Positions 13,447-44,479 of a stretch of 64,000 bases of DNA are shown one piece after another. This DNA comes from Notolepis coatsorum (taxonomy: Eukaryota; Chordata; Actinopteri; Aulopiformes; Paralepididae). The translations under genes were made by a program, and so were the position numbers. Every line of letters starts with the position of its first letter. The stretch's first letter is position 1. The notes beneath the pieces are model-generated. The model ran no database searches. It saw only the letters and a list, made by a program, of their open reading frames with translations, and was not told the origin of the DNA. The DNA lies in contig OZ020594.1 in assembly GCA_963971535.1 (NCBI GenBank), positions 118,455,127 through 118,519,126 of the forward strand, in the 5' to 3' direction.

Positions 13447-15187
13447 GGTGAGTGATTATGGAGTGTACGGGAGTTCAATTCGAGCCTAGAGGGGGGTTGC
13501 TAAGATATTGCCTCATATAGGAATATATGAAGTAAAGATGAGAGGCCTCATGTTATTGTAATATGAAGACGTAGTGGTGGCACAAACTATCTGATTATGG
13601 GGTGGTCAAAGCGTCGGATGGCAACAGATGGAAGGCTTTATTGATCAGAGAGCTCGGTAATCTGGTTGGCGTGCGACAGGAGCGCGTCCTGAGCATATAA
13701 GAACCCTAGAATATATTCTCAGGAAAAGGGGCGCTATGATAATTGGTAATTTTTGCGTGTCCTGAATGGGGAGAGAGCCGTGTATGGATGGGCTCTGTCG
13801 CTATTTAGAACATGTAAATCGGCTTGGTATAGATGAATTAGGATCTGCATGAATCGGGGAACGTTGTTGTGCGATTACAGGATTATCACGTAATGGTTAA
13901 TATAAACGGGGCTGGCGTGTTCAGGAGGCTTCAATAATAATAGTTTGCTGGCTGAGCATGGTAGACAGGACATGTGTCTGCGGGAAACTATCGGCCGAAT
14001 TAAATGAAGATATATGTTCGTCTTTAGGGCATAATATCGAGCGGATCTGAGAGATCCTTTTTAATCTTGAGCATACCGGCGTGTTGATTGATTGCGTGCG
14101 CTGTGATGGATGGGGGACGAGGCGCTTGGGAACATTTCGGTTAAAAGACTGATTAAGTACTTATTGAGGATTCGATTAAAGCGCTATAGTGAACTTAAAC
14201 ACTGGCTATAGTACGGTGTGCGATTACGCTTGATCTTGTGTTTAGTAGATGCGCGGTAGTTATTGAATAAAGTGTAACGGAATGTGAGATCTGCCGCGGG
14301 CGTTCGGGTTCTATAATAAGTAAGCTTGAGAGGATGTGTATGTTATTGCAGTTATGGTTAGGCATGGCAATGATGTGTGTGTTTGGGTATGAGTGAAAGG
14401 ATTTATGGTTGTGTTGTACGTTGCGTGATGTAGTATGGATTAAATCTGTAAATTGGCACTTACAATATGACTGAGAACGGTTTTTAATGTTGAACCTGGT
14501 GGGCACGCTATGTCCGCTGCGCCACCCAGCTATGCATGGAGGGGCGCGTGCATGCTCGTCGAAGCTCGTGCTGGACAAAGCGCGTTCTCGTCAGAACTTG
14601 TGCGTATCGTAGCGCGCGGCTAGGCTAAGCTACATGCTACAATAGCTCGTCGCGGCTCGCTTGGGGTTGTTCAATACTGTATGTTGTGAATGGGATGATA
14701 TTGCAGTGTAACTGGATTGTCATTTATGTTGGATGGGTCGTGTGAGTTTGCGGTATTGGCTAATGTTTAAATGGTATTGGCTGAATGTTTGAACGAATGC
14801 AGGATGTGTGGGGAATGAGTAGGCCGTGTGGGAGATGCGCGCATGCGCACTTGTGAGAGAAGACATTGTGTGTGAGACGTGAAAGAGTGGAATGAATTGG
14901 GATGTGGTTAAAAGTGCACTAGGTGGCGCCAGAGTCAACCTGGGGATTCAGTCCGGCCTGCTGAAGCAGGTTGGAGGGGGTCCTGGGGTGAGCTTGTGAT
15001 GCGCGGCCGTTTTAAGTGGAGCGCAGTGGTCGCCATTTTAGACGGGGCTGGGGTGGCCATTGTAAGGGGTTTATGTTTTCGGAGTGATGTGGTAGGTACT
15101 GCGCTAGGGGGCGGTAGAGGCGTCATTTGGACTCCCGTCCTGGGCAGTATGTCGTGCGTGGCTTTTGTATGGTTGAATGTATGTGAT
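13447..15187 (+). other. Putative intron of env block, unique G/T-rich sequence
   Basis: No ORF with recognisable similarity is present. Composition is G/T-rich on the plus strand, like the env ORF and unlike the A-rich gag-pol at 19.7-26.7 kb. Confidence 0.35.
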
Positions 15188-15446
15188 GTCCCTTTGTTGG
15201 GCCTACCCCCTCCCCCCCTCTCTCTCTCTCTATCTCCCTCTCTCTCTCTCTTTCTCCCTCTCTCTTTCCTCACACACCCTTGCCTCCATATCTCTCCCTC
15301 TTTACATTTCTCACTCTCTCTCACCCCCCCCCCTCTCTCTCTCTCTTATCTCCCTCTCTCTCTCTCTTTCTCCCTCTCTCTCCCCACACACCCTTGTCTC
15401 CATATCTCTCCCTCTTTACATTTCTCACTCTCTCTCACCCCCCCCC

Positions 15447-15486
<40 letters not shown>

Positions 15487-15602
15487 CCTCTCTCTCTCCA
15501 CACACACCCTTGCCTCCATATCTCTCCCTCTCACTCTCTCTCCCCCCCCCCTTTCTCTCTCTCTATCTCCCTCTCCCTCATTACATTTCTCACTCTCTCT
15601 CA

Positions 15603-15657
<55 letters not shown>

Positions 15658-15897
15658 CCTCTCTCTCTCCGCACACACCCTTGCCTCCATATCTCTCCCT
15701 CTTTACATTTCTCACTCTCTCTCACCCCCCCCCTTCTCCCTCGATCTCTCTCTTTCTCCCTCTCTCTCTCCCCACACTCCCTCCCTCCCTCTTTCCATCT
15801 CTCCCCCCCCCCCTCTCTCTCTCTCTATCTCCGTCTCTCTCTCTCTTTCTCCCTCTCTCTCTCCCCACACTCCCTCCCTCCCTCTTTCCATCTCTCT

Positions 15898-15930
<33 letters not shown>

Positions 15931-15988
15931 CTGCCTCTCTCTCTCTCTGCTGCCTCTCTCTCTCTCTGCTGCCTCTCTCTCTCTGCTG

Positions 15989-16029
<41 letters not shown>

Positions 16030-17058
16030 TTCTCCCTCTCTCTCTCCCTTTTGCTCTCTCGACCCCCCCCCTCTCTCCCTCTCCCTCTCTCCCTCTCTCT
16101 CTCCCCACGCCCCCTAGCCTCCCTCTCACTCCCTTTTTCTCCCTACACTCCCTGTACCCTCTTCTCCTCTCTTACACTTCTATCTCCTCTCTAACTTTCT
16201 CTCTTTTCTCTCTCTCTCTCCCTCTCTCTCTCCTTCCCCCTCCACGGGAGGCGGTTGGGCAGTTGCAAAGTATGGCGTATTGTGTGATATGTTTTACGGT
16301 TGGGAGCAGGTCTGTTCGGGACCACGTGCCCCCCCCCTCCCCCTCCATTGCCTCTTTCTCTCCCTCTTTCCTCCCCTTTATGCCTTTCCTTTCTGGTCTC
16401 CCCCGTTTCCCTCCCCTTGCACTTTCTCTCCCTTACCCCCCCCCTCTCCTTTTTTCCTTCAGCCCCCCTCTCTCTCACTCTTTCCCTTTGCACTCTCTCT
16501 CCCTTCCTTTCCCCCCCCCCCCTCTCATTTTTTTTTTTTTTATTTCTTTCCCTCTCTTTGCTGCCCCCCTCCTTTTCTCGCTCACTCTTTCCCTTTGCCC
16601 CCCCCCTTCTGCATGGTTTTCTTCCTCTCTCCCTTTCCCCCCCCCCTCTCTCCTTTTTTCTTTCCCTCTCTTTGCTGCCCCCCTCCTCTTCTCGCTCACT
16701 CTTTCCCTTTGCCCCCCCCCCCTTCTGCATGGGTTTCTCCCTCTCTCCCTTTCCCCCCCCCCCTCTCTCCTTTTTTCTTTCCCTCTCTTTGCTGCCCCCC
16801 TCCTCTTCTCGCTCACTCTTTCCCTTTGCCCCCCCCCCTTCTGCATGGGTTTCTCCCTCTCTCCCTTTTCCCCCCCCTCTCTCCTTTTTTCTTTCCCTCT
16901 CTTTGCTGCCCCCCTCCTCTTCTCGCTCCCTCTTTCCCTTTGCCCCCCCCCCTTCTGCATGGTTTTCTCCCTCTCTCCCTTTTCCCCCCCCCTCTCTCTC
17001 ATTTCTCTTCAACCCTCCCACTCCATCCTTTGCCTCACTTGCTGAGCCCCTCTCTCTC
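15188..17058 (+). repeat. Polypyrimidine tract, nearly 1.9 kb, with two internal VNTRs
   Basis: Almost pure C/T on the plus strand. The left half repeats a block of roughly 120 bp marked by CCTTGCCTCCATATCTCTCC. The right half repeats a block of about 115 bp marked by TTTGCTGCCCCCCTCC near 16557, 16672, 16788 and 16904. Long Ser/Leu/Pro frames through it are a by-product of the repeat. Mirror-like polypurine-polypyrimidine DNA of this length can form triplex structures. Confidence 0.95.
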
Positions 17059-17333
17059 TCCCCCCTCTTCCTTCTTAAGGCCGGCATGGAGATACATGTT
17101 TGCCCTCTGGCCCGGTCCTCTCTTGACCGGTCGGCGGTTTCGTTGCGGCCTTTTTTCTCCTGCCCTACTTGGGGTGCCGGGGTGTCCTAGTATTGTGTTT
17201 AGGTTGGGGTCTTCGTGTCAGTGGACTGTGGTGTGTGTAGTTATAAAGTTGTGTTGTTGTTTGTGGGGATTGCAGGACATATTAGGATACGCGCCGGTGA
17301 TGGAGGAAGGAGGAGGAGGACGGAACATTCGAC

Positions 17334-18671
17334 ATGGTTCCTGGTTTGAGTGACAGTAGTAGGCGGGTGCTTCGGGGGTGTGCTGTGGAGGTGGTTTGGT
17401 TGTGTGTGTTGGTCGGTACGATAATGTATGATCCATATCAGCGACCTGAACAGCCAGAGGTGGTGGTAGTGGGTAGAAGGTCGCTGCCAGACCATCGCGG
17501 GAATCTGTTTTTGGGGGTGGCTAAAATGGCTAATAAGTCAGATTGCTATGTGTGTGGCTTGGCCCCGCAAGCGGCCGACGCGGGTCTTCCTCTGATTGCG
17601 CACCCCTTAACGAAGTGTCATGCCAATGTGTTGAGAGACGTGCCTCTCCCTCGCCTGTGCGACGGGGTGAGTCATGATAAGATATTGAGGTATTTGGGCC
17701 GGGAGTTGGGGTCGAATAAGGCTGTGGGTTATGCAGGGCTAAAGGACAGTAGCCCCATTCCAGTGGCGTTTAGAGCGGCTGGGTTTGAGATGTGCGTAGA
17801 GGGGAGGTCCGGTGGTAGGAACGTGGGCTATTTGGACGGCTGCTTGGGTGATAGTGGAGTCTGGGGTAAGGATTCGGAGGCGCCAGCCCCTAGTGGGGCA
17901 TTTTGGATTTGTGGTGAGTTTGCGTACGCCGCATTACCAATTAAGTGGAGGGGTAGGTGTGCATTGGGGTATTTAGTGCCGGCTATGAGGGTGTCAGATG
18001 TTTTGCCAACACTTCCCAGGTCAAGGAGAAGGAGGGATGCGGACCACTTTTTCAGGGTGGCATTTCCCTGGTATGGGACGTATGCGAACATGGGTGAACT
18101 GGACCATCTAGCTCGAGTGTTTGAGGATATGGCGGCTACGACCGCGAAGGGTATGACCCTGGAGGCTCAAGAGCTACGGTCCTTAAGACTGATGGAACTG
18201 CAGTCAAGGACAGGTTTGGACTTCCTGTTGGCGAGTTCAGGAGGCATGTGTGCGTTGATTGGTCAGGAGTGCTGCACATTTATCCCAGAAAATGATATAG
18301 GTGGCTTACCAGCGATTATAGAGCATTTGAAGAATATTACTAGGGAGATGCAGCCCGCGCGGGAGGACTCGTGGGAGGACTGGGGTCATAGTTGGATGGG
18401 CTATATAGGATGGACGATTGTTAAGTATCTGCTGTGTGCTGTGGTGATGTTTGCGGTTATAGTTGTTTGTGTGAATGTAATCAGGGTGTGTGTGGCGTAT
18501 GTGTTCAGGACTCTCGGCGCGGCTGGTTCTGCGTCTGAGGACCCACACTGCTCGACTGCACCTGCGTATACGATGATGGTGGTAAGGGATGGCGCGGAGG
18601 GTGGCAGGGTGGGTGTGGGCGTTCCAATAAAGCCGAGATGCCCGGTGTACGCGCTGGCAACTATTCTCTGA
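17334..18671 (+). CDS. env: Retroviral envelope glycoprotein, uninterrupted ORF
   Basis: The 445-residue product has the plan of a class I retroviral Env. Residues about 15-30 form a hydrophobic signal segment. The surface subunit carries a CXXC motif (CYVC, 71-74), known in gamma-type Envs to pair with the transmembrane subunit. A furin-type site RSRRRR lies at 230-234. The transmembrane part has an immunosuppressive-like region and the CX6CC motif (C306, C313, C314), then a membrane anchor at about 363-395 and a 50-residue tail. N-linked sites include NKS (67) and NIT (344). The start has a good Kozak context (GACATGG). A splice-acceptor-like TTGCAG ends at 17275. There is no frameshift or stop, in contrast to the neighbouring gag-pol. 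AATAAA occurs inside the ORF at 18626. It may be a fossil, a co-opted gene or part of a rearranged provirus. Confidence 0.85.
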   Translation: MVPGLSDSSRRVLRGCAVEVVWLCVLVGTIMYDPYQRPEQPEVVVVGRRSLPDHRGNLFLGVAKMANKSDCYVCGLAPQAADAGLPLIAHPLTKCHANVLRDVPLPRLCDGVSHDKILRYLGRELGSNKAVGYAGLKDSSPIPVAFRAAGFEMCVEGRSGGRNVGYLDGCLGDSGVWGKDSEAPAPSGAFWICGEFAYAALPIKWRGRCALGYLVPAMRVSDVLPTLPRSRRRRDADHFFRVAFPWYGTYANMGELDHLARVFEDMAATTAKGMTLEAQELRSLRLMELQSRTGLDFLLASSGGMCALIGQECCTFIPENDIGGLPAIIEHLKNITREMQPAREDSWEDWGHSWMGYIGWTIVKYLLCAVVMFAVIVVCVNVIRVCVAYVFRTLGAAGSASEDPHCSTAPAYTMMVVRDGAEGGRVGVGVPIKPRCPVYALATIL

Positions 18672-19534: not shown

Positions 19535-19732
19535 ATCAGGTAAGAATAGGAATTTCAGGTGAACAAGGGACAGAAGAGAATAGGAAGGGCCCACAGTGCC
19601 ACTATTGGCTGTCCGAGTAGGAGTCAGTCACAAGAAGCATAGACACCTACACTTAGATAGGGATTACAGAAGATACTTTTCTGCCTGTTGCCATTGTTAC
19701 AAGATAAAGAAGATAAGAGAAACTTTAGAAAA

Positions 19733-22312
19733 ATGGGGAGAAAAAGCGCATATAAGAAAATGAAAGCCACAACCAAATCAGATAAGTCGACCATAATTGG
19801 ATGGATGGAAGAGAGTCCAGTACAGATTATTGCCAACGAACACGACACAACAAAAGGTAACGAATATTACTTGGAAAAAGCAATCTATGTATCAAAAAGA
19901 TGGAATGAAAGATGGAAAACGCTTGCGAAACGTTGGCCGGTCGAGGGTTCTTTTGATTTAGAGTTAATAGCTGATATACGAATGCTAATTAAGACATATG
20001 CATACCACGGGGGCGACGTGGCAAGGGCAAAGAAATATTTGCAAGAAACAACAATGATAGAATCTTATGCACGGGAAGCTGAGAGAAGAGATAGTGAGAA
20101 AAAGGCCATAGCAAATGGCAATGATGCAGACAAACCAGTAGAGGAGGTAGTCCCGGTCACCATAACTCCCCTGGCCCCTAGCACAGCACCTGTCACCGCC
20201 CAAAGTGCAGTTCAGTTAGCCTCACCCACCCCAGCCTCCTATCTTATTGCCCAACAGGAAAGAATTGAGGGAGCTTTAGCACCCCCGCCATATGCCAGTA
20301 GGAATGGGGGGCCAATATACCCCATCTTACCTGTATTAGAGATGACGAGTCCTTATGAAATGACAGATGATGCGGGGAACAAAGAGACGGGACAAGCAAA
20401 GACATCAATTCAGCTGATAGCTAGGCAACCAGACAGTTCAGCCCAGACTCGGTCAGACAGAGAGTATGCGGCCGCCTCACGGCCAAGGGAAGGGATGGAA
20501 AGGATGTCAGAGCGAGCTAGAGTGATCCAAGAAGCTGAAAGGATGGGAAAGGAAGGCTATGAGACAATGTTAAAACAGAAAGATTGGGCAAGGATGAAGG
20601 CAACCTATGGCCATCCTCTAGGAGTTTCTGACCACCAGAGAGGGTATGACCACCAGAGAGGGTTTGACCACCAGAGAGGGTATGACCACCCGAGAGGGTA
20701 TGACCACCAGAGAGGGTATGACCACCAGAGAGAGTCTGTCCGCCAGCCGGAGTACTTACAAAGCCCCCCAGCTCCTGCGCCCCACTCCGTATACCAAGCT
20801 CTCCCTTCCCCCCAACCCCAGTCCAGCAGGGGGGTAGACCCTGGCAGTTTCGAGGTTGGTCTCACGAAATCACAGTGGGTGGATGTAGATGCAGTAGGTA
20901 AGAAGCCGGAGGCTATCGACATCGAACTTGGGGGGCAGATGATACAGATAAAAGACGATCTGACAGGGATAGACCAGGCGCTCGTGGATTTGGACAGGGA
21001 CCACGTTGACATAATAGGGCGGTTTACGAGCCACGACTCTACAAAAACTGATGGGGCAGATGAATATAAAGAGATCATGAGGATACGGGCTGGCATTGAG
21101 GGAAAACTAACCGCCCTGCAAGACAAAAAAGCAGAGCAGAAAAAAGCCCTCCAGAAAGTAGAAGATGCTGTAAGGGAGAGAATGCAGACCAGATCACAGA
21201 CGAAAAATAAGCAAGCCCCTGTCCGCATGGCTCCTATAATAGTCAGAGGACAGGACCTGGAATATCACCCCTGGAAGGCGTCGGACATGACACAGGTGAC
21301 TGAGAAATTGCCGCCCCTCCAGAATGGGGCCAACCCATGGATTGCCCAACTGGAGGAGTTGATGGTCGGACAAGAAATGGCAATGGGGGATGTCAAGAAA
21401 ATATTGACAACCGTGATGGGAAAAGACGGCATGGAAAGGATACTGGAGACGGCTCACCTGCATGGCCATGTGGGGACTGGAGCGCATGATGCGGACCCGT
21501 TCACACGGTACAGGGGAGTAACGTGGCTGGCCCTACGAGACACCTATCCAACGAGATTGCACCCAGACCAAATTCAGATTGGTACTCTGGGGGCAACAAT
21601 CCACCCCAGGCTGTACGTACGACAAGCCTATGCCGCGTGGAAGAATACAACTGGTCAGGAGGCAGGACTTGACCTTATGCATGAAGCCACGTTAAGAGCC
21701 AAGATTGAAAACGGCCTCCCCCTAGAGGTAAGACAGAAATTGGCCGAGGTGGTGTCATTGTCAAGTATGGCAGTAAACTTATATATTGATCAAGTGGTCC
21801 ATTACGTTGAACTGTATCGGAAAAAAGAGCAAAGGACAAAGGAGAAGGATATGGATCAACAACGTAAGATCATGTATCAACAGCCAACCGATGCAGGGAA
21901 GGTAGTGGAATACCTTCAAGCCTTAGTCCAGGCCCCACAACCAAGAGGTGGGACAGGCGATGAAGGGTAACCACAGGAACAAAGACAGGCTCAAGCGGGA
22001 ACACAAGGGGGTCATGCGCCGGAACAACAACAAAGGTCAAGAGGAGCAACCGGGTGGCAACCACGAGGAAGAGGTGGAGGCAGAGGCAGGAATCCGAATG
22101 GATACGTGTTTCGGCGGGTGGAGTGTTGGAGGTGCGGGGAGACTGGCCATCTCGCACGGGACTGTGGACAGGACTACCAAGCCAGAGGGGGAGGAACTCG
22201 GGGGGGAGACCGGGGAAGAAATTGGCAAGGCCAAGGCCCACCCCGAGTTCAAGACCCTAGTGAGAACAATGGCCCGGTAAATCCAGCAAGAGGGCCAGAT
22301 GAACCACTATGA
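19733..22312 (+). pseudogene. gag: Endogenous retrovirus gag (one internal stop)
   Basis: The start at 19733 is chosen because it gives Met-Gly-Arg-Lys, an N-myristoylation signal for the matrix domain. An upstream in-frame ATG at 19688 lacks this. The order is: matrix; a late-domain PPPY at about residues 184-187; six to seven YDHQRG hexapeptide repeats (20630-20745); a coiled-coil region; a capsid-like region; and, after an in-frame TAA at 21968-21970, the nucleocapsid with one zinc knuckle CWRCGETGHLARDC (22124-22165). The frame closes with TGA at 22310-22312, and protease continues in the same frame. This is the gamma/epsilon-retrovirus arrangement, where pol is made by stop readthrough. 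Confidence 0.85.
20630..20745 (+). repeat. 18-bp coding tandem repeat in gag (YDHQRG)
   Basis: The repeat unit is TATGACCACCAGAGAGGG, six to seven copies with small variants (FDHQRG, YDHPRG). It lies between matrix and capsid and keeps the frame. Confidence 0.9.
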
Positions 22313-22740
22313 AGAGGCCCAGAGAGTCCAATGGGGAGGTGTCAGCTGTCAGTGTCGTCTTTGAGGGAGGAGCCTATTGTGTGCGTAACGGTGAATGACA
22401 AATCTGTCGAGATGATGGCAGACACCGGTGCGGCCAACACGGTAGTACAACCCCAAGACGCGACGCACCTAACCATGTAACCATGTCCGGTCGATACGTA
22501 CGGACAATTGGATTTGAGGGAGTAAACCAGCTGACGCCTGTTACCGATCCTGTGACTCTGAGATATCAAGGCAGGGAAGCGACTCTCCCTGTGCTGGTCT
22601 CGGAAAGCACACCCATTACCTTACTTGGCCGAGATGGGCTGGGGTTACTGGGGATGGACATTAAATGTACTGCGGAGGGTTGCGTGATAGCCGAACGAGA
22701 AGACCAGTACTATCAGATGGTACAACGAATCGACAGTCAA
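22313..22740 (+). pseudogene. pro: Endogenous retrovirus protease (frameshifted)
   Basis: The active-site motif MADTGAANT starts near 22415 (DTG at 22421-22429). The frame then meets a stop at 22478-22480 within a local duplication of AACCATGT and resumes one frame over at 22483. The C-terminal motif ITLLGRDGLGLLG matches the closing segment of retroviral proteases. It would act as a dimer to process Gag-Pol; the break prevents this. Confidence 0.85.
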
Positions 22741-23265
22741 CCACCAGAGATTTATTGTCTAGGGGGACTGGACCAAGAACTGCTTGGTCCAGCCTTGCAA
22801 TGGGAGAAATGTATCACTGCCAATATGCCTGAAGCAAGTGATCCAAAGACCCCCTATCATTGCACTCTGCAGTATCATAAAGATGCAGACTCGTCACAGA
22901 CTAAGGAGTGGCTGAGGGTGCAACCTGACAAAGTACAGCTGAATGCTACCGATATCATATTGGGGCCGCAGGGAGCAGCGCTACGTATTGCACGGAGCGA
23001 CTATCTGCATAAAGAGCACGGCATTATGGACAGTGTTCCCCATGTGACTTTGAAGGTAATCAGCTCATGTGATCAACAGCACATAGGCGAAATGATGAAA
23101 AAAGCCGAAGGGATGGAATTTGAACAGATGAAAGAAAACAAACGGATCTGGATAAGCCCTGATAAAAGGTTTATTAAGATCATGGTCCAAGGCACAGGGA
23201 TGGGTCGTCCCCAAACTGTGCAACTATCCCAAGAGACACTGGGAGAACTCCCTAATGCATCAAGC
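22741..23265 (+). pseudogene. Pol segment between protease and RT with two H-x-T motifs (2H-phosphoesterase-like)
   Basis: About 175 codons, open in the frame of the second protease part, lie between protease and reverse transcriptase. They contain YHCTLQY (His codon 22858) and VPHVTLKV (His codon 23041), 61 residues apart, with a GPQGAALRI strand-like segment between. Two H-x-T/S motifs in paired repeats are the hallmark of the 2H phosphoesterase superfamily (LigT-like, viral 2',5'-phosphodiesterases, phage Acb1). Standard retroviral Pol has no such domain here. The assignment rests on motifs only; the spacing is short for the superfamily. Confidence 0.5.
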
Positions 23266-24146
23266 CTCCAAGAGGACATGATGGAGGCGGTGCCTGAGAT
23301 GCTGTGGGCAAAAAACAGCACTGACATTGGATTAATCAAGTCCGCTCAACCTGTGAAGGTGGAGCTTAGACCTGGGGCCACCCTGCCTTGGAAAAAACAG
23401 TATCCATTGAAGGAGAAAGCGGTGGCTGGAATCGAGCCACAAATCAAAGGACTTTTAGCTGCAGGAGTCCTACGGAAAACAACTAATCCCCGGAGCAACA
23501 CGCCGTTGCTACCGTGGAGAAGCCTGATACCTCTTACCGGCTGGTGCATGATTTAAGAGCTATCAACGAGGTGTTACTTGACTATCCATCAGATGTCCCC
23601 GACCCCCATGTGCTATTGACATTTATCCCGTCGAAAGCTGAATACTTTACGGTTATAGATTTGTGTAGTGCATATTTTAGTGTGCCCTTGAGCAAGGAGT
23701 GCCAGCATTTTTTTGGTTTTACTTATAAGGATGAATATTATGAGTATACTAGGATCCCTCAGGGACTAAAGCATTCGCCACACATATTCAACAAAATCCT
23801 AAGGGAGGATTTAGAGGGGTTGGATAAGGTCATGACCTCTAGGGTCATTCAGTACATGGATGATCTGATACTGTGCGCGGACGATCAGACAACATGTCAT
23901 CGCGATTCCGTGAAACTGTTGCAGCTGTTGGCGGAAAACGGCCATAAAGTGTCGTTGAAAAAGTTGCAATATTGTAAACCTAAAGTGATCTATTTAGGAC
24001 AAACAATTTCACAGGGCCATCGGGCTATTTCAGAAGAACATTTGGTGGCCATAAAGACAGCGCCCAAACCTGTGACGGTACGACAGCTAATGGGATTTCT
24101 GGGTATAATGGGGTACAGCTCTCCATGGGTCGAGAACTATACGTAA
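23266..24146 (+). pseudogene. pol: Endogenous retrovirus reverse transcriptase (frameshifted)
   Basis: Fingers begin near VKVELRPGATLPWKKQYP. A frameshift lies at about 23508-23520, after which the frame gives YRLVHDLRAINEV, FTVIDLCSAYFSV (first catalytic Asp), RIPQGLKHSPHIF and QYMDDLILCA with the YMDD pair at 23853-23864. Stops TAG and TGA-containing sequence at 24144-24150 end it. The motif set is that of class I retroviruses. Confidence 0.9.
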
Positions 24147-24149
24147 ATA

Positions 24150-25110
24150 GTGAAACCATTGAGAGAAATGATGAAAGAAGTGGGCGTTGATAAACTGAGT
24201 AGTAAAGTGGTATGGACCGAGGATGGCTCACGGGCATTCGAAACAATCAAGTCCCGACTGTTAGAGGTGCCGGCCCTGGCTTTGCCTAACTATACCAAGA
24301 AATTCATACTCTACGTCTCTTCTTCTCCAGATCAGAAGCAGGCGTGCGCGGTGTTGGCCCAGAACACAGGGGTGGGGGCGCGACCGCAGCCGATGGCGTA
24401 CTACTCAATTGCCTACTCGGAAGTAGAGATGGGGATGGCTCCATGCTACCGAGAAATGGCTGGAGTGTATACGATGTACGAAAAAGCCGCAAGTATTATG
24501 ATGGGATATCCAGTGGATATCATGGTGAGGCATGACTTAAAGAGTCTGTTGGAGTCCGGTAAATATGCACTAACGATGCCTCGCATTAAACATTACTACA
24601 GACTTTTGGAACAGGAAGACGTGACGCTGGTCAGGTGTTCCATAACGAACCCGGCAGCTGACATCCCTACGCCTGAGGATGGAGAACCCCACGACTGTAT
24701 AGTTGAAGCCGAGAGGTACTCTAAACTCAGAGCAGACTTGCAGGCGTTTCCATTTAGCAGTCCAGATCTGGAATTATGGACTGACGGCTCTTGCTATCGA
24801 GTTGGCGAGGGACTAAAAGCAGGCTACTCCGTGGTAAGGTCACAGGGCGAAGGGTTTGTGGTGGAAAAAGCCGAATTTTTTATTTCGGCACAGTGTGTAT
24901 TTGGCACAGTGTGGAAAGGGCGAGGTTTTAAGAAAGCTGATGGAAGCGCCATAAAACATTGTAGTCAGATTAAACGGTTGTTAGAAGCAATTATGAAACC
25001 AAAACAGATTGCGATAATCAAGTGTGCTGCCCACCAGTCAGACGAGTCGAAAATAACTTGAGGAAACAAAAGAGCAGACGAAGCTGCCAAGGAAGTGACA
25101 GGTGCCGACA
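24150..25110 (+). pseudogene. pol: RT connection and RNase H (internal deletion and stop)
   Basis: The connection domain runs to about 24700. RNase H starts with LELWTDGSCY (first Asp, near 24780), then GYSVVRS. Between VVEKAEFF and FGTVWKGRGF the segment that should hold the catalytic Glu and second Asp is missing. KCAAHQSDE follows and a TGA stands at 25059-25061 before NKRADEAAKE. The RNase H is therefore inactive. Confidence 0.85.
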
Positions 25111-26678
25111 GAGCAGGTAAGGTGTTGGTTATCACACACGGAGTTGAGTTAGAGGACAAGATAACCTACAAGGATGTTTTGACTTTCCAGGAGGAGGCTA
25201 GTCAGGTAGAACGGAACCTCTGGATAACCAGGGGAGCTTGTCAGGATGATTCAGGTTTGTGGCGCGACATCAATGGATTTGTGGTGGCTCCTGCTGGCCT
25301 GGTCGGACTGCTGATCCACACGGCTCACGACTTTTGCCATGCGCATAAAGGAGAGGTAAGGAGAAAAATTTGAGAATATGGCTTTTGGGCGCCAGATTTG
25401 AACAGTCAAATTGATCATGTGCTAAAGAGATGTGTAATATGTTTGAAAAACAATATACGTAAGGGGATTAGTGTGTCACCAGGACATATCCCCACGCCCA
25501 ATGGCCCAATGCGAGACCTTGTAATTGATTACATTGACATGATTAGGCCCATTAATCAGAAGAGATATATTCTTGTCGTTGTCTGTCGTTTTTCAAGGTG
25601 GGTGGAGGCATGCGCCACCCGGCACAAGGATGCAGCATCGGTGGCTAAGTTCTTATGCCAAGAGGTAATTCCCCGTTTTGGTTTAATGGACAGAATCAGT
25701 TCGGACAATGGCAGGGAATTCGTTGACAAGACTGTGCGTTTAATACTCCAACATTTAGGCATAAAACAGCGATTGGGGGCCGTTTATCATCCGCAGAGCC
25801 AGGGGATGGTGGAACGCATGAACAGGACGCTAAAAAACAAGCTGGTAAAGATCTGTCAACACACAGGATTGAATTGGCTGAACGCTCTCCCTTTAGCATT
25901 GATGGCATGCCGGTCAAGCGAGGTTCGCGGACTGCGTCTGACACCGCACGAAATGATGTTAGGTCGCTGCATGGTAGTACCAGGTTTGCGCGCGACAGGC
26001 AAAGGTCCGAGTTTGGACACCCTGGACAACGATATGCGTGAATACGTAAAATACATGTCAAAGATACACAGAAATATTCTGGATCATGTCTCCAGTAGAC
26101 AGGAGCATGAAACCGGGGAGGAGGTGAATAGGCAGACTACACCTCAAATCATACCAGGCGACTACGTTTATGTTAAAGTATTTAGACGCAAGTGGTTTGG
26201 CGCGAGACGAGAAGGGCCATACAAAGTCGTTCGAGCCACCGAGAGGGCTTTACAAATCCAAGGATCACCGATGTGGTTTCACGTTACTCATTGTGTAAAA
26301 GCAATCGATACGGACCAAGAATGGGAACCTGAACCACGAGACCTTGACGATGAAACCGGGGCGTCGCAACCGTTACATGAAGGCGAAGTGGAAGCGGCGG
26401 AGGATGAAATTGGGGTGGCGCTAACCCCAAACGATGGGGAAGATGCGAATGATTATGGCGAGCCAGACCGAGGGGACCACGATTGGCCACGAGTAGAGGA
26501 TGAGGGTTTTTTACAGGAACCAGACAGAGGAGAAGATTATGAATTGGAACATAATAATTTCTACTCTGTGGATTTGGAGAAGGTACCAGAAGAACCGGAG
26601 GAACCAGTGCTTAGCACAAGCCCGGAACGAGATACTCGACCACAACGAGTCATCAAGAAGCCTCAACGGTATACATAG
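25111..26678 (+). pseudogene. pol: Endogenous retrovirus integrase with long acidic C-terminal tail
   Basis: The zinc-binding part has His residues in HTAHDFCHAH and the CVIC pair, split by a stop at 25371-25373. The core supplies VIDYIDM, SSDNGREF and GMVERMNR, the D, D and E of the catalytic triad. EGPYKVVRA is the GPY/F module. About 100 residues of acidic, Pro-rich tail with EPDRG repeats extend to 26678. From 25398 the frame is open for 426 codons. Confidence 0.9.
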
Positions 26679-26956
26679 GCGAAAGAAGGGATAGTGTAAC
26701 TGATAGGCCTTGGAGAGGGCGTGTATATATAAATCTTTCATTTTTCATTAGCTGAGCTCTCTCCTTTTTTTTAGAAATGTTTAGATAGTAAATGCAATGT
26801 AAAGTCTTTTCTTTCAGAGTGGATTGCACAAAATAGACACGTTTGGTTAAAAAAACACATAAGTATAGTCTAAACCTGGTAATTGGTACGATCATCTTTT
26901 TGCATAAAGGGACGGACCTAGACTGAAGTGAAATTGATATAACTGATACATTGTGT
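26679..26956. other. Junction between the retrovirus and the BEL element
   Basis: It has a TATATATAAAT at about 26729 and CTTTCAG at 26812-26818, which could be remains of an env splice acceptor or LTR, but neither env nor an LTR copy is present. Both flanking elements are truncated toward it. Confidence 0.4.
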
Positions 26957-29900
26957 ATAATCTTGTCAGCTAGTACTTGGCTGTACCTCCACATTCTTCG
27001 GCCGTTCGCTTCTTCGGGCCTGTACATTGTCTGGGGTAGCGCGGGGTCCAGCCGCCCCATTAGGAGTGTGTTGGGGGTGACTGGGTCGACATCTGCTACA
27101 TCACTGGAGACGTAACCGAGGGGCTTTGAGTTCAATACTCCCTCGATCTCCGTGAGGACTGTCATTAGGACTTCCTCTGCCACAGTCTGGGCTCCGAGTA
27201 CGGCATACAGGGCTGTCTTTATAGAACATACTTCTCGTTCCCAGGTTCCACCGAAGTGGGGTGCGTTCGGGGGATTAAACTGGAAGTCAACCTGGGCTGG
27301 AGCGAGGTGGGTCTTAAGTTCTGGGCCCATAGCTTGGAAGCTCTCTCTCAGCTCTCTTTCTCCGCCTTTGAAGTTGGTCCCGTGATCAGACAACAATGTA
27401 GACGGTTGTCCTTTCCGTGATATGAATCTCCGGAAGGCCATAAGGAATGAGTCTGTGCTCATGGTCGGAAGGAGCTCGATATGTATCGCTCTGGTGGTCA
27501 TGCATTTGAATACAATACCCCACCGCTTCTCGGTGCCTCTTCCTCTCTTTATATACAACGGGCCAAAACAGTCCATGCCTGTGGAGTGGAATGGCTTGTC
27601 GCCGATTCGGAGGCGACAGGGGGGTAGGTCAGCCATCCGTGGTATGCTGGGCTGCGCGCGCCACTTACGGCAGTCTAGACAGGTTCGCTGGAAGCGCCGT
27701 ACTGCTTCTCTCCCTTGTAATATCCAATAACGACGTCTGATCTCCGCGAAGACTCTCTCTGCTCCTGCGTGGTGCACATCCTCGTCGTATTTCTTTATGA
27801 TCAGCTCTGTGACCTTGTGTCGGCTGTTCAAGACGATCGGGTGCTTAATGTCATCTGGTAGATCGGGGGCTCTCCGCAGGCGACCACCCACTCTGATGAG
27901 ATTATGTGCGTCACTCTCTGGTGCCAGGTGAATCAGTCTGCTGTCTGATGGGACGGGGTTTCCTCCCTGTAGACAGTCTAGCTCATCGGGGAACGAGTCT
28001 CTCTGGGCTCGTTGTAGTAGAAGAAGTTCTGCTTCTTCGTAGTCAGCTGCTGACATGTCAGTGGTGGACTGAATCTCTGGGTGGTGCCGCAGGAATGTCC
28101 TTTGTTGCGCACTCTCTAGGGTAATGCAGTCATCTATGTTCGGGTCTGTGGAGGCAACAGTGCTCAGTCCACAGAACATAGGCTTCTTGTTCTCAGCCTC
28201 CTCGCTACTTGCTTCCCTCGGGGTGGGCGTAGGCCAATCTCCTTCCGGGAGCTGGAGGAATGCTGGTCCGTCACTGTAGATGTTGCGACGGGTTAGGTCA
28301 TCCAGGGACATTCCCCGGGTGATGACGTCAGCTGGGTTGTGTTTGGTATCCACATACCTCCAGCTTGCTTCTTCTGTTAGTTCCTGAATCTCGGTGACTC
28401 TGACTCCCACGAAGACTTTGTATCTGCGTGAATCAGACTTAATCCATGTGAGTACTGTCGTGGAATCTGACCACAAGATTGTTCTATGCACCGGAATGGT
28501 GAGTTCACGTTGGATTAACGTGGCTAGATGCGCTCCTGCGAGGGCTGCGCAGAGCTCTAGACGTGGGATAGATTGTTGCTTACGTGGGGCTATCCTTGAG
28601 CGGGCCAGTATGAAAGCAGTGTGTATCTCTCCTCCCATCTCTTGGGCACGCAAATAAGCAACCGATCCGTAGGCTACTTCGGAGGCATCGCTGAAGACGT
28701 GTAGCTCAATCTCGCATGTCTCTGGCCTCACTGTGGATGGGAAGTAGCTGCGGCGTATATTGACACCTGGGAGTGAGCGGAGTTCCGTCTCCCACTCTCT
28801 CCATGTTGAGGCAAGGTGTGCGGGTATTGGGTCGTCCCAGCCCTGGTCCTTGTCCCATAGTGCTCGTACAATCATCTTTGCCCTGGTGGTGTAAGGTAGA
28901 ATACATCCCAGCGGGTCATATTGTCTGGCGAGTGTTCTGTACACACTCCGTCTGGTGGTCGGTATCGCCGCCGACCTTCCTTGCTCTGGAGCCAAGGGTT
29001 TGTGTCTATAGTGGAGCGAGTCTGTTTTGAAGCGCCAGACTAATCCTAGTGTCATTTCTTGGGCTTCTCCTGGGATTGTCGCCATCCAGGTCTCGCTGCT
29101 GGCAGCCTTGTCTGCGGAGGAGAGGCTGCGCAATACGTGCGGGTCACTGCTGGCCCACTGCCTGAGATCAAAGCCTCCTTTGATTAGGGAGGCGCGTAAC
29201 TTGATTAGGAGAGCCTCGGCTTCTTCTTGAGTCGAGACGCTTTGTAGACAGTTGTCTACGTAGAAACTGTTCTTCACACTGTGTTGGACCTCTTCATCTG
29301 CTGCTGGGTCCTCTGTGACGTGTTTCTGTAGTGCAAATGTAGCACAGCACGGGCTGCATGTGGTTCCGAAGGGGAGTACTTCCCACTGGTAGATGGATGG
29401 GTTCTCATCTCCGATCTTCTCTCTCCATAGGAACCGTAGCAGAGGCTTGTCCTCCTCTACTAGTCTCACTTGCAAGAACATCCCTTTGATATCCCCGCTT
29501 ATAGCCACCTTGTCCTGGCGGAAGCGCAGTAGCACGCCTAGTAGGGAGGGGCCGAGTGTGGGGCCGGGCAAGAGCTCTTTATTCAGATTTTGGGATCCGA
29601 TCTGGTAGCTGCAGTTAAACACAATGCGATCCTTGCCATTGTGATGGACCTTGTGATGCGGCACGTACCATGATTCGGTCGTCTGATCGGCCTCTTTAAT
29701 GTCAATCTTTGTTACGTGTCCCGCTGTGATTAGCTTCTCAATCTCAGCTCGGTACACACTCTGTTGAGCGGGGTCTTTGGCTAGGCGCCGCTCTGTGTTC
29801 AGTAGATAGCGCTCCGTGGCGTCTTTCTTTGCGTGAAAGGGGGGCATTCCCTCTCGCCTCAGGAGTGGAGTTGCGTATCTCATCACTCCGCCGACTGTGA

Positions 29901-30264
29901 CTCTCTTTGTCCCCTGCTCGAGTAGGTGGATGGCGTAAATGTCTTCTTTAGAGCGAATGTCTTTCTTTTCGTTCTTAAAGGGCATTGTCTCTAGGGTCCA
30001 TAGCCTCTCGACATGCTGCAGGAGAGTGGTGTCTTCTTCTGTCGTTCTGGAGTGGAAGCAGCTAGTGGCTGCGGTTCGGTTGAGAGATTTAGCGAGGGGG
30101 CCTTGCAATGTCCATCCTAGGCGGGTCCCGACTGCTGCAGGACAGCCTCGGGGACCTGTATGGACCCGGTCAATCGGGACTATGAGTTCTGCATGGTCGG
30201 AGCCTATCAACAGGGTCGGGGTAGCGCCGTCTATGAGCGGGATAGGTAATTGGCGCAGGTGCAC
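26957..30264 (-). pseudogene. pol: BEL/Pao pol: RT, RNase H, integrase (3'-truncated)
   Basis: After a frameshift at about 30262 the minus-strand frame is open for over 1,100 codons. It carries the end of the protease (PIPLIDGATPTLLIGSDH), RT motifs KDRIVFNCSY and SFYVDNCLQS, RNase H (HVFSDASEVAYG, LWSDSTTVLTWI, KHNPADVITRG), the HHCC region (HHAGAERVF, CLDCRKW) and integrase core (GMDCFGPLY, LLSDHGTNF, GVLNSKPL). The RT signature reads YVDN where most RTs have YxDD; similar forms occur in vertebrate BEL elements. Recognisable sequence stops at WRYSQVLADKI near 26957. Confidence 0.9.
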
Positions 30265-32903
30265 ATATTTATCAACTTGGTGACAGGGTAGGTGTACTGC
30301 GAGAGTCCTATTTCTTGGCTGGTGAAAGCATTTGTGATCTTGTACCGTCGCTCTGGCTGCCCGTTGGCTGCAATAGTGAAGGAGACATTCTCGCCCTTTA
30401 TCGTCTTTAAATCTCTTCTTATTGTCCGAATCGTCATTTCGTTCTTGCTCCCCCGCAGTCCCAGTTGAGTCGCAGCGGAGGCGAGCAGAAGGGTCTTCTC
30501 TGACCCGTCATCAAGGACGGCGTAAGTGTCCATGACTTTATCCTGGTAGCTCAATGTCACACGGACTACCTTTAAGAGCACTTGAGCTCCGTTGCTGCTG
30601 GCGGGGTCAATGTACATGACACTTGCCTTGGTGCCGCTCCGTGGTGCAGGTATAGGCCGTCTTCCGTTACTATCGTGTAGTATATCTAGATGGGCTCCAT
30701 CGCACCGGCTGCACCTTTTCTTTAGGCGGCATTCGGCTGCCATGTGGGGCCGCGCACATCGATAACAGCGCCGGTTGGACTTTATCCATTGGCTCACTTC
30801 TTCTGCATTCATCTTTGTGAATGAGTCACATTGTGACAGCCAGTGTTCTTTCTCACAGTAGGGACACGCTATCTTCCACTTCTCCTTTCTCGAGGGGGTG
30901 CTGTGACTCTTACTGCTCGGTACTGACTCTGATTGGTGCATGACAGTCACCGATCTTCTTCCATCACTTATTCTCCTGGGTCCCTCTCTGGAGCTTGGCG
31001 TGCTCCGCCCGAAGGTGTCCAGTCGTAAGCTGCTGACCTCTCTCGCCAAGAAGTCGGCCAGATCAAGGAGGGATGGCTCGGGGCCGTCGGGATCTCGGTA
31101 GTCCCTCTGCCGCCGAAAGCGCTCCTGTCTTGCGGGTGGCAGCTTCTCCAAAATCCTCTCAACGTTAGAGTTGGCGTACAGCTCATGCCTGCCCTTCTCC
31201 CGTTGAGCTCCCAGCATCCCCACCAGGGACTGCACTTTGATTGACAGGTCGTCCAGTGAGCGATTGTCTGTGGCTGGGGGTAGGCGGTCAATATGCCTTA
31301 TCTCCTGGATTACGTAATCCCATATACGTCCATATCTTTGATCCAGCGCTGCAAGGGCCGCTGTGTATGGGGTCGAGGAGGTAGCATAGGCTAGCGCTAT
31401 ATTGTGCGCTCGCGGTACTTTCAGGTGCTTCAATAATATTGCATACTTGTGGCGTTCATCAGCGACATCCACCATCATTGTCTCTAAGCACATCCGGAGC
31501 TCCGTGTACTGTGCTCGACTCTCATAGGCGAAGTCCGGGAATGACGGCGTGGCGTTGTATGACGCTGTGGATGGCTGATACATCGGCGAGCGTTGGGGGA
31601 GAGACCTCCTGGGCGAGTCCCCTCTTGCGCCTCGCTGTGGGCTGGTACTGGCAGGGTACCATGGCCCGCTGGTCCAGGTACTGTTCCTCGGGGCTGGTCG
31701 TGCGTCGTGCTCACCCGTAAATAGAGTCGGGGGTCTGTAGCGCAGCGCCGCGGGGGTATAGCCTGGACTGTATGGGACCTCCTGGTCCGGTGGAGTACTG
31801 TGCTGTCGTCGGGCTTGGTTCTCCTCTTCTCCCTCTTCTTCTTCTATCAAATCTTCCAGATCTTGTAATCGTTTATTTAGCTTCTCCGCAGTGTAGGCCG
31901 CTCCTTCCTTGTAGCTGGGTCTCGCTTGGACCGGTATGGGAAGGGGGTCTGCGGGGGGTCTAGACTCGGTCTGTTGGTCAAGTTCAGGGTCGCTTGCTCG
32001 TTGCGGTGACGCTGCTCTTGACTGCTGTCTCGACGAGTTCCTTGAGCCCCTGGCGGAGGGAGAGGGAGTTGTCCTTTTGATCAGCTGCTCTATTAGTTGC
32101 GCTTGTAGTCTGTCGCGCTCTGCGTCTCTTTGGGCACCGGCAGCGGCACGCTGGGCGTCGGCGGCGGCGCGCTCTGTTTCTCTTTGGGCACCGGCAGCGG
32201 CGCGCTGGGCGTCGGCCCGGTCTCTTGCCATATTCTCTTCCATCTGGAAGCGTCTCATCTCCAGACTTGTGCGCTGTTCTTCGCTCCGTTGCTGTGCTTG
32301 GAGGTGTTCGCGCTCGCTGGTCGCCTGGGCTTGGAGACGTTCGCGCTCGCTAAGCGTCTGTGCTTGGAGCCGATCGCGTTCGGTAGAGGCTGTCAGGCTG
32401 ACGAGGAACGCCTGTTGTAGTATCCTCTCCGCTTCGCTGGGGGAAGGCGGTAGTGGAGGTGAGCCTCTTCTGCGTGAACCGCTCCTGGGGGTACTCGTTG
32501 GGGAGTCCTGGAGCTCTAGTTCCTTGGCGCTCTCCTCTTCTTCTTCCGTGCAGAGTTCTCTCTCTGTAGGGTTGTCTTCCTCCCGGGGCGTGTCGGGGAC
32601 TACTTCTTTAGTAGTGGCGGGGGGTAAAGGCATGTCAATTCCCTCCTGGTCTCCACCGTGGGCTTGGTCAGTTACATTAGGACCTACTAGGGCCTCTGTG
32701 GTCGGGGAAACCTGGTCGTTAAGGTCAGACATAATTTTACTTTCTACTTTTACCACGTTTACCGTTTGTCGAAGGCTAGGTAGTTGACTGACAGTGTAAG
32801 CCTCTAAGTACTGAGGTGTCTGTCGTCTGCGCCGCGGGCGTTCTAGGTTAGGAGGATCGTTTCGTGGAGTGTTCATCATAGGCCATTTCGATATTAATAA
32901 CAC
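30255..32903 (-). pseudogene. gag: BEL/Pao gag and protease (frameshift into pol)
   Basis: The frame opens at 32903; a second ATG at 32876 (MNTPRNDPP) is an equally likely start. A strongly charged coiled coil with repeated ERxRLQAQ and DAQRAAAGAQR motifs spans residues about 165-275. The Gag core is followed by three zinc knuckles (CPYCEKEHWLSQC, CYRCARPHMAAEC, CSRCDGAHLDILH) and an aspartic protease with AVLDDGSEKTLL. BEL elements encode gag and pol in one frame; here a single small deletion near 30262 shifts it. Apart from that and the lost 3' end the element is almost intact. Confidence 0.9.
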
Positions 32904-33896: not shown

Positions 33897-34458
33897 TGTC
33901 TAACCATGTCTAATGTAACCATGTTAATGTTACCATGTCTAATGCAACCATGTTATAATGTTACCATGTCTAATGCAACCATGTTATAATGTTACCATGT
34001 CTAATGTAACCATGTTAATATGTTACCATGTCTAATGTAACCATGTTAATGTTACCATGTCTAATGCAACCATGTTATTATGTTACCATGTCTAATGTAA
34101 CCATGTTAATATTACCATGTCTAATGCAACCATGTTATAATGTTACCATGTCTAATGTAACCATGTTAATGTTACCATGTCTAATGCAACCATGTTATAA
34201 TGTTACCATGTCTAATGCAACCATGTTATAATGTTACCATGTCTAATGTAACCATGTTAATGTTACCATGTCTAATGCAACCATGTTATAATGTTACCAT
34301 GTCTAATGTAACCATGTTAGTCTAATGTAACCATGTTAATGTTACCATGTCTAATGCAACCATGTTATAATGTTACCATGTCTAATGTAACCATGTTAAT
34401 GTTACCATGTCTAATGTAACCATGTTAATGTTACCATGTCTAATGCAACCATGTTATA
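33897..34458 (+). repeat. Minisatellite in gypsy LTR, left arm
   Basis: Alternating units of about 29-30 bp built on ACCATGTCTAATG followed by TAACCATGTTAATGTT or CAACCATGTTATAATGTT. The Met-Ser-Asn-Val-Thr reading frames through it are by-products. Confidence 0.95.
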
Positions 34459-34897
34459 ATGTTCAGGCCTACCCGACCATGCAGCCTGCATGGTAGAGCT
34501 AGTATTGTCCAGCAACACTCAAACCTTTGAGTGTCCAAAAGGTGATAAGTCCTGGGTTGATCCACATCTTAGAAAAAGGAAAGGCAAAAATAGTAATCCA
34601 CTGGGAAGCACCACTGCAGCTGACCTGTCCTTGGTTACTGAAGAATCTTTTAGGAGGCCTGGCAAAATTCCTCCTTCCTCTCACAATAGCAGTAGCAAAC
34701 AAAACTCCATGAGGCCATGATTCCAATCCAAGATGGCCCCCCTGATGGTTGGGACCGCCCCTAACCACACCCATACCTGGAATCTTAAAGGTCAAGTGAC
34801 CCAAATATGCTGACATTGGCACATCCTAACATATTGGGCCCACACTTCACTTATCAACACATTGACATCTTCTTCATAAAGTAACGCATGTTACACA
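33897..34897 (-). mobile_element. Ty3/gypsy LTR, left arm (partial, with minisatellite)
   Basis: Read on the minus strand the LTR begins TGTGTAACATGCG at 34897 just after the polypurine tract. Its far part is a minisatellite and it is cut at 33896. It mirrors 42734-44479. Confidence 0.7.
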
Positions 34898-37800
34898 TCC
34901 CCCCCACCAAGCGTAGTACCACCGCCATAAAACATCTTCATGTTCTCAACATGCAAGGTTTCATGGGTGGTGGGACTGCTATCCATGGCTACTCTGTAGT
35001 TCACTGACCCTAAATGTCTGAGAACTGTGGCTGGCCCTCTCCACTTTGGAGCAAGTTTTGCCATAAACATGACCTTGGCATCAGACTGTGGGTGCAGCTT
35101 AACCCATACCTTCTCTCCTACTTGGTATGTGACAGGAGACCTCCTTCTATTGTAGCTTCGAGCTTGATGCTCCTGGGCCTGAGCCACATTTTGCTGAACT
35201 TGTTGCAGGATTTGCTGTTGCCTTTCTAACATGGAGTAGGCCTTTTGGTCCGGCTTGGGAGGCTGATATAGAAGTCGCTCCAGAGGTCCTTTCAATTTTC
35301 TTCCCAGCGCAATCTCTGCGGGAGTGAACCTAGTACTCTCATGGTAGGCGGTGTTGATGGCAAAGCGGAACTCGCCCAACCACAGATCCCAATCCTGATG
35401 CTGATCTTTGACGTAAGAGGCCACCATGGTCTTCAGGTTTCTGTTGACTCTCTCGGTCAAGTTAGTTTGGGGGTGGTAGCTTGTGGTCAGTTTTTTTACT
35501 ACACCCCACTGGCGACAGAGTTCTTTTAAGAGATGGCTGGTGAACTGTGGACCCCTGTCAGATAAGAGGTACTTTGGGGTTCCCCAACGAAGGAAGATCT
35601 CCTGTCTGAGGATATGTATTATCTTTGGTGTTTTGGAGTCTCGTAAAGGGAAGTGTTCCACCCACTTAGAACAGTAGTCTACTATAACCAGAAGATACGG
35701 ATTCCCCTTCTTACTTCTGGGGAAAGGACCCATCAAGTCAATCCCCAACATCTCCCCTGGTTCGCTGACCGTGGTGGACTGAAGGAAACCCGCCGGTTTC
35801 TGACACCCAGGTTTGTACTGCTGGCATATGAGACAGTTCTTTGTATAGGCCCACACATCATTCCTGACTTGAGGCCAGTAGGCTACCTCCAGCAGTCGCA
35901 ACAGTGTCTTCAGCCTTCCCATGTGACCACTAAGCGGGTTGTCATGATAATACTTCAGAAAGGACTCCCTTAGTGATCTAGGCACGAAAAGCTGTAACTT
36001 GTGGCCTAGAGTTTGACCAGGTATTCGTCTGAACAGGATTCCATTTTCAAGAACATAGACTATCCGACTTGCTTTAGGATTTCCTTTTCCTATCTCCTCC
36101 ATCAACGCTTGTGATTCTGCGTCAGCAGCTTGGGCGTCAGCAATCTCTGCCCAATCCGTTGGTAGATCGCATCCCGAAGAATCACTTTTGTTCTGCTTGG
36201 TCACACAGGCCGCAGCGATGGAGTCTGGGGTTGTGAATGCCCGTGACAAAGCATCAGGTACCACGTTCAATTTTCCCTTCCGGTATACCACCTGGAAATC
36301 AAAATCCTGAAGCCGAATGGTCCACCTGATGAGCCTTGATGTGGGTTTGGGGTTGTTGAAAGCCCAAACAAGGGCAGCGTGGTCGGTAATTACTTCAAAC
36401 CGTTGACCCTCGATCAAGGCCCGCCACTTCTCCACGGCCCATACAACAGCAAGACATTCTCGCTCTGCGACAGAATAGTTGATTTCAGCTGGCTTCAACA
36501 ATCTCGAGGCAAAAGCAAGAACATGGTCCTGTCCGTCTCTCTGCTGGGTCAGTACGGCTCCCAAGCCAATCCCACTAGCATCGGTCTGCAGTGTGAATGG
36601 CAGGCTGTAGTCTGGCTGTTGCAAGATAGGAGCTGACTGGAGTGCTGCCTTGAGGTCCTCGAATGCGCCTTGGCACTCTGGTGTCCATTGCCATTTTACA
36701 TCTTTCTTTTTCAGGGCATTAAGGGCTGCAGACCGTTCTGCAAACCTAGGAATGAACCTATGGTACCAGCCCACCATTCCCAGAAAACGTGCGACCTCCG
36801 GTAGTGTCCTGGGAGTAGGAAAGGCCTGGACTGCCTCAACCTTTTGGTTGTCGGTGACAATTCCCTCGGTAGTCACAATGTGTCCAAGGAACTGCAAGCG
36901 GTGTTGCATTAAGTTGCACTTCTTGAGGTTCAAGATGAGGTTTGCCTTCTGCAGGCGGAGAAAAACATCAGCCAGATCCTGAAGGTGCTGTGCTTCAGAT
37001 TTTGAATAGACTATAATGTCATCTATGTAAACAAAGCACGTGACTCCCTTAAGATCGGCTAGCACCACTTCCATTAAGCGCTGAAACGTAGCAGCAGCAT
37101 TCTTCAAGCCAAAAGGCATGACTCTAAATTCAAAGAGTCCGGCATGGGTCACAAAGGCAGTTTTCTGCCTACTGGCTGGATCCATCCTCACCTGCCAGTA
37201 GCCACTTTTGAGGTCTAAGGTGCTGAACACCTTTGCACCATTCAGCGATTCCAAGATTTCATGAATGTTTGGCATAGGGTAGGCATCAAGAGGGGTCTTG
37301 GAGTTGAGACCCCTATAGTCCACACAGGGGCGATCGCCTCCATCCTTTTTCTTAACGATTACCATAGGCGCAGCCCAAGGAGACTTGGAAGGTTGGATAT
37401 CGCCTTTTTCCAGCATGGACTTCACTTCCCTATCCACCACAGCCTTTTTCTTCGGTGAGACCCGATATGCCTTTTTTCGAACTGGCTGCTCATCTGTCGT
37501 TTGGATGGTGTGTGTCACCACCTCTGTTTGCCCAAGCTGCTCTGAACAGACCTTTGGCCACTGGAGTAGAAGGTGATGTAGGGCTTCCTTGGTGGACTGA
37601 TCCATGTCAGCCTTGCTGACAAGTACTTGGAGATTGACTTCTTGCTGGGCTACAGGGGTTGCTGCTAAGTACAGCCCCACCAAGGGCTTCCTCTTTTCAT
37701 CCCAGTGACCCTCCCATCCTACCTCCTCTTGAAGAAAGCGATGGAACTGGAGTTTCCCTCCATGCCTAATCCCATATGTCCCCGACTTAAAGTCAAGTTG

Positions 37801-37903
37801 GATTCCCGTCTTAAACAGGAAGTCAAGGCCTAACACAACTGGGAAGGCCAAGTGTTCTTTGCTCATAACGTAGGCATCCATCAGCCATAAGTCCTCATGC
37901 AAA
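34891..37903 (-). pseudogene. pol: Ty3/gypsy pol, left arm (5'-truncated, long open frame)
   Basis: The frame is open for about 1,000 codons but lacks gag and the start of protease. It begins near the protease end (FPVVLGLDFLF), then RT (DRPCVDYRGLNSKTPLDAYP, STLDLKSGYWQV, VYIDDIIVYS), RNase H (LQTDASGIGLGAVL, VAERECLAVVWAVEKW), the integrase zinc region (HMGRLKTLL, CLICQQYKPGC) and core (GIDLMGPF, LLSDRGPQF, NLTERVNRNLK), and a chromatin-end type tail closing at GGGDV. Only truncation makes it non-functional; no internal stop is seen. Confidence 0.9.
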
Positions 37904-38036
37904 GAAGAAAAAGGCTGTGGTGGATAGGGAAGTGAAGTCCATGCTGGAAAAAGGCATTATCCAACCTTCCAAGTCTCCTTGGGCTGCGCCTATGGTAATC
38001 GTTAAGAAAAAGGATGGAGGCGATCGCCCCTGTGTG

Positions 38037-44270: not shown

Positions 44271-44479
44271 CATTTATGTTGGGGCTAATGGACTGTAAAG
44301 CTGACGGGACCGTTCTTATTGGTTTGAGATGATTTTTGTTGTACCATACGTTGCTATGGGGTGCCCCATTTATTTTGATCTTCTTTTTGGTTAATACAAC
44401 ACTTTGAATTTAACACTGTTCCAGTACTCTCATTCTTTATAGCTGAACAGGTTTGTTTATTATTATCAAGCTTGTTACA

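Follow-up and report, generated by a model that had tools for sequence, protein, structure and literature searches.

What lies between the protease and the reverse transcriptase (RT) of an endogenous retrovirus in the fish Notolepis coatsorum? Besides protease, RT, RNase H, and integrase, the Pol of orthoretroviruses usually contains little else. We analysed a window of 64,000 nucleotides (contig OZ020594.1, positions 118,455,127 to 118,519,126), in which a retroviral Pol carries an additional segment at this place. Based on its motifs, their conservation, its predicted fold, and its fixed place in Pol, we concluded that the segment is probably a 2H phosphoesterase domain that most resembles the catalytic domain of CNPase and is carried in the Pol of a class I retrovirus family of fish.

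The segment belongs to an open frame of 385 amino acids (22399-23556) that contains LLGRD, YHCTLQY, GPQGAALRI, and VPHVTLKV in this order. A first-pass annotation had pointed to a pair of H-x-T motifs in YHCTLQY and VPHVTLKV, 61 residues apart with GPQGAALRI between them, and both the coordinates and the spacing, counted between the two His residues, were confirmed. When the frame was compared with PDB sequences (E up to 10), proteases matched up to residue 86 and RTs from residue 299, and no match was obtained within residues 87-283; the sole match reaching between the two parts was a designed protein (E 2.6), from residue 284. A strict pair of H-x-T-[LIV] motifs 55-110 residues apart arose in 0.12% of 20,000 residue shuffles of this frame; for a loose pair (H-x-[TS]-hydrophobic) the rate was 1.5%. 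Of the 37 stop-to-stop frames of at least 150 amino acids in the window, three contained the loose pair and one the strict pair. At these shuffle rates the motif pair was suggestive by itself and short of proof, and conservation is stronger evidence than the statistics of the pair.

Three protein searches yielded 25 relatives, which together with the window copy formed an alignment of 26 rows (A4). Species names were attached to 12 of the 25, from nine species (Dicentrarchus labrax, Phyllopteryx taeniolatus, Micropterus dolomieu, Mugil cephalus, Scortum barcoo, Metynnis hypsauchen, Scophthalmus maximus, Prochilodus magdalenae, and Syngnathus typhle), all of which we take to be teleosts, characins and percomorphs included; the other 13 proteins had no species name. 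No confirmed relatives were found in a viral contig collection, and none among annotated phages. Protease, RT, and integrase Pfam domains lay in one chain in 6 of the 15 proteins from one search (P0017-P0020, P0023, and P0024), and in these the domain was located between protease and RT. Because the one-chain relatives share this position, the place of the domain in Pol is a trait of the family and no accident of the window copy.

Motif 1 was covered by 24 of the 26 rows (P0010 and P0025 begin past it) and motif 2 by all 26. The first His was found in 24/24 rows and the second in 26/26; the corresponding Thr residues were present in 22/24 (Ser in P0003, Met in P0004) and 25/26 (Ala in P0004). 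The spacing between the two His residues was 61 in 22 of the 24 rows, 60 in P0002, and 58 in P0004. With gaps left out of the count, 23 of the 160 columns in the domain were invariant, both His included, and the residue directly before the first His was among the most variable, as 148 of the 160 columns varied less. Since the rows are related, these counts refer to sequences and not to independent events. The first-pass annotation had proposed that related fish elements should keep both motifs amid variable neighbours, and that relatives lacking one would speak against it; both His residues were indeed retained wherever the motifs were covered, whereas P0004 had neither Thr. Such constancy of His and Thr would be needless if the 2H fold had no enzyme activity and served in RNA binding, dimerisation, or the spacing of Pol. 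We therefore consider a non-catalytic role improbable, with P0004 in its favour, and with 2H folds such as AKAP18 able to bind nucleotides without known cutting.

Outside the motifs the domain diverged rapidly. Across seven full-length Pols, mean pairwise identity was 0.59 in the domain (P0017 residues 130-290) versus 0.74 in an RT stretch (340-560), and when these Pols were divided into 80-residue blocks, only the integrase tail showed lower identity than the domain. Domain and RT distances of 14 proteins were correlated (Mantel r 0.61, with 4 of 5000 permutations as high; many tree supports were low), which would fit a long joint descent.

Structure prediction, the other check proposed at the outset, gave a model (mean pLDDT, predicted local distance difference test, 63) with the two-lobed fold of duplicated strand-helix-strand units, and this fold matched 2H proteins. 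The top structural match was the CNPase catalytic domain, with 162 residues aligned. Matches also included ns2 of mouse hepatitis virus (MHV), rotavirus VP3, and Acb1, which have this fold in common, and the list contained 7aor_ar, a chain of the trypanosome mitoribosome.

Sequence profiles agreed with the 2H assignment, if weakly. The scans used alignment A3, with 12 of the 26 rows, and a second alignment of 14 members (A2). In Pfam, LigT_PEase and 2_5_RNA_ligase2 each matched 7/12 members of the former (best E 7.7e-4), and 4/14 and 2/14, respectively, of the latter; LigT_PEase aligned with motif 2 of the window copy and, in some relatives, with motif 1. Acb1 (E 0.12) and 2H-SAK (E 0.15) matched one of the 12 members each. 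In PHROGs, phrog_4163 (unknown function) matched 5/12 members with a best E of 7.2e-4, at residues 126-163 of the window piece and thus clear of both motifs; phrog_755 ('RNA ligase') likewise matched 5/12, with a best E of 0.046. NCBIfam returned one unrelated weak match for the 12 members. In hhalign comparisons with a profile of close bacterial relatives of E. coli ThpR, too narrow for significance, His was aligned to His at both motifs (E 0.012 in one comparison), with a score of 21.8 and a reversed control of 10.3. ThpR as query gave one phage record, of no use.

Several results weighed against the 2H assignment. No 2H family of Pfam was matched at its curated cut-off (LigT_PEase at best 20.0 versus 23.3 bits; 2_5_RNA_ligase2 at best 19.9 versus 27 bits), and the unrelated LEH (E 0.0093) and DUF2014 (E 0.042) matched single members better than Acb1 and 2H-SAK did. 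The PDB sequence profile search returned no 2H protein, its seven matches all being ribosomal protein L28 at chance level, and the ThpR comparison had a probability of 3.7%, with 1 of 60 column shuffles scoring higher. The confidence of the kept model was modest, the other four models had a mean pLDDT of 37-40, and P0004 had lost both Thr. The His spacing is 79 in CNPase versus 61 in the fish domain, and CNPase Arg307, two residues before the second His, has no counterpart in the window copy, where Val takes its place. The curated cut-off is a database criterion and not a defining trait of 2H proteins, and distant members of the superfamily are described as having little sequence in common (PMC5283653). 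Weak family-profile and PDB sequence searches and modest model confidence would also suit a coincidental H-x-T pair, in a segment that has some other fold or is a diverged extension of the protease or RT. Given the shuffle rates plus the conservation in relatives, chance was dropped as the source of the pair, and we regard such a segment as very improbable.

CNPase (mouse/human CNP; goldfish RICH) has the fold nearest to the fish domain, at an identity of 7-12%. It carries an N-terminal P-loop kinase-like domain, whereas the fish domain is flanked by protease upstream and RT downstream. CNPase is described as using His309 to activate water and His230 to give a proton to the leaving 3'-oxygen, with Thr232 and Thr311 helping to hold the phosphate, Phe235 as the stacking partner of the base, and Pro225 in a cleft-edge loop (PMC4643303). 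In offsets from the first His, which were compared and not superposed, the fish domain resembles CNPase in having Pro at -5, Thr at +2, and an aromatic residue at +5 (Tyr in 23/24 rows, Phe in 1/24). MHV ns2, the rotavirus VP3 C-terminus, and AKAP7/AKAP18 matched the fish domain more weakly than CNPase, and the match to Acb1, a phage protein against the cyclic-oligonucleotide-based antiphage signalling system (CBASS), was no closer than those to other 2H enzymes. Capture of an AKAP7-type gene as the origin was set aside, if not firmly, as CNPase matched the model better.

A 2H or CNPase-type domain in fish retroviruses is of a kind already mentioned in the literature. 2H domains in fish retroviruses including Walleye dermal sarcoma virus are credited to Mazumder 2002 (cited in PMC9503650), and epsilon-like sequences of ray-finned fish with occasional extra frames for CNPase or macro domain proteins to Basta 2009 (cited in a 2016 review, PMC4977317). 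As the citing papers describe them, these domains are likewise of 2H or CNPase type in fish class I retroviruses. The word stem 'retrovir' is absent from the main text of a 2024 survey of viral phosphodiesterase captures (PMC10835031), and among the matches listed in the open-licence literature there was no study of the role of 2H domains in fish retroviruses.

The element that hosts the segment is a decayed endogenous retrovirus on the + strand. Its window copy is dead: the frame of Pol shifts at least twice (near 22.5 and 23.5 kb), and in-frame stops are present as well. By tblastn comparison with three long relatives, Pol spans 22352-26585 in three frame segments; the protease remnant changes frame around 22.43-22.50 kb, and the RT and RNase H region changes frame again near 23.4-23.5 kb and contains in-frame stops. 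In the PDB sequence search the protease part matched the proteases of equine infectious anaemia virus (EIAV) and HIV weakly (E 0.015 and 0.84), and the RT matched solved RTs that we take to be of murine leukaemia virus (MLV) type. Protease, RT, and RNase H, together with an integrase whose C-terminus is of MLV type, identify the sequence as a class I (gamma/epsilon-like) retrovirus. The upstream frame matched no gag family of Pfam and is called gag because of its position and CCHC knuckle; it includes tandem repeats of a GYDHQR-like unit at about 20600-20720 (+). Self-comparison of the window, with the low-complexity filter on, gave no repeat pair of at least 80 bp close around 17-27 kb that could represent long terminal repeats (LTRs).

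Table 1. Positions of the 2H-like segment, its motifs, and the surrounding parts of the provirus in the window.
Feature	Position	Strand	Basis or remark
Gag-like frame with CCHC zinc knuckle (CWRCGETGHLARDC)	19661..22312	+	Two open pieces, one frame
Retroviral protease remnant	22352..22700	+	tblastn of long relatives, frames 2 and 1
2H phosphoesterase-like domain (model residues 8-172)	22732..23226	+	Predicted fold
First catalytic-type motif, His-Cys-Thr (open frame residues 154-156)	22858..22866	+	His at 22858-22860
GPQGAALRI stretch between the motifs	22963..22989	+	Largely conserved in the family
Second catalytic-type motif, His-Val-Thr (open frame residues 215-217)	23041..23049	+	His at 23041-23043
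RT and RNase H region	23293..25061	+	Pfam RVT_1, RT_RNaseH_2, RNase_H
Integrase with MLV-type C-terminal domain	25374..26678	+	Pfam rve, MLVIN_C

Upstream of gag, a 456-amino-acid open frame (17301-18671, +) matches TLV_coat (E 2e-9) and encodes the C-terminal portion of a gamma-type Env; it may be where a neighbouring or tandem provirus ends. It directly follows a stretch of nearly 2 kb made up of CT-rich micro- and minisatellite repeats (15185-17040). No env was recognised 3' of pol in the part of the frames scanned there. On the opposite strand, an open frame of 1284 amino acids (26653-30507, -), by its look presumably a BEL/Pao-type polyprotein, overlaps the final bases of the integrase frame. 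Further away, an LTR-retrotransposon Pol (RT, RNase H, and integrase), which we take to be gypsy-like, is present in two inverted copies (33903-44274) whose arms are 98.3% and 99.8% identical, and an RT frame, presumably LINE-like (long interspersed element), ends in a match to ALKBH8_N (54307-55521, -; E 1e-16).

If the segment is a 2H phosphoesterase domain, its two H-x-T motifs would jointly make up a single active site, with one His activating water and the other protonating the leaving group. The putative enzyme would open a 2',3'-cyclic phosphate, or some related phosphodiester, independently of metal. Because the domain sits in Pol, general retroviral biology suggests that little of it would be made, and that it would be packaged into the particle and be present at the start of reverse transcription. 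The most likely substrate would be an RNA end with a 2',3'-cyclic phosphate, as on the genome or primer tRNA, or a small nucleotide, host signals included; with CNPase as the nearest fold, the RNA end may be somewhat favoured. The first-pass annotation had gone further and proposed that the domain degrades a nucleotide signal, perhaps cyclic GMP-AMP (cGAMP). Its 2H domain in Pol was supported by the predicted fold, the retained motifs, and the position, and the signal-degrading role we hold as a rival explanation: a counter-defence enzyme delivered by the virion, which would destroy host cGAMP or 2',5'-oligoadenylate in the manner of phage Acb1 or of the 2',5'-phosphodiesterases that coronaviruses and rotaviruses carry. 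This explanation overlaps with ours, sharing the enzyme class and adding a definite target. The fold common to MHV ns2, rotavirus VP3, and Acb1 speaks for it, and catalytic residues that stay fixed while their surroundings diverge rapidly are in keeping with contact with host partners that themselves change; we nonetheless think it doubtful.

CNPase has been reported to bind Gag and thereby block the assembly of HIV and other primate lentiviruses (PMC5434554), and a CNPase-like domain within a retrovirus therefore invites a direct test. Tentatively, the family may represent a long-lived lineage of fish retroviruses that packages a CNPase-type 2H enzyme in its virions, distinct from the AKAP7-derived viral phosphodiesterases, and that uses it in early infection to inactivate a nucleotide signal of the host or to repair RNA ends left by cleavage. 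If this is true, a conserved enzyme of another class, delivered together with RT, would provide a handle on the obstacles that fish retroviruses meet early in infection.
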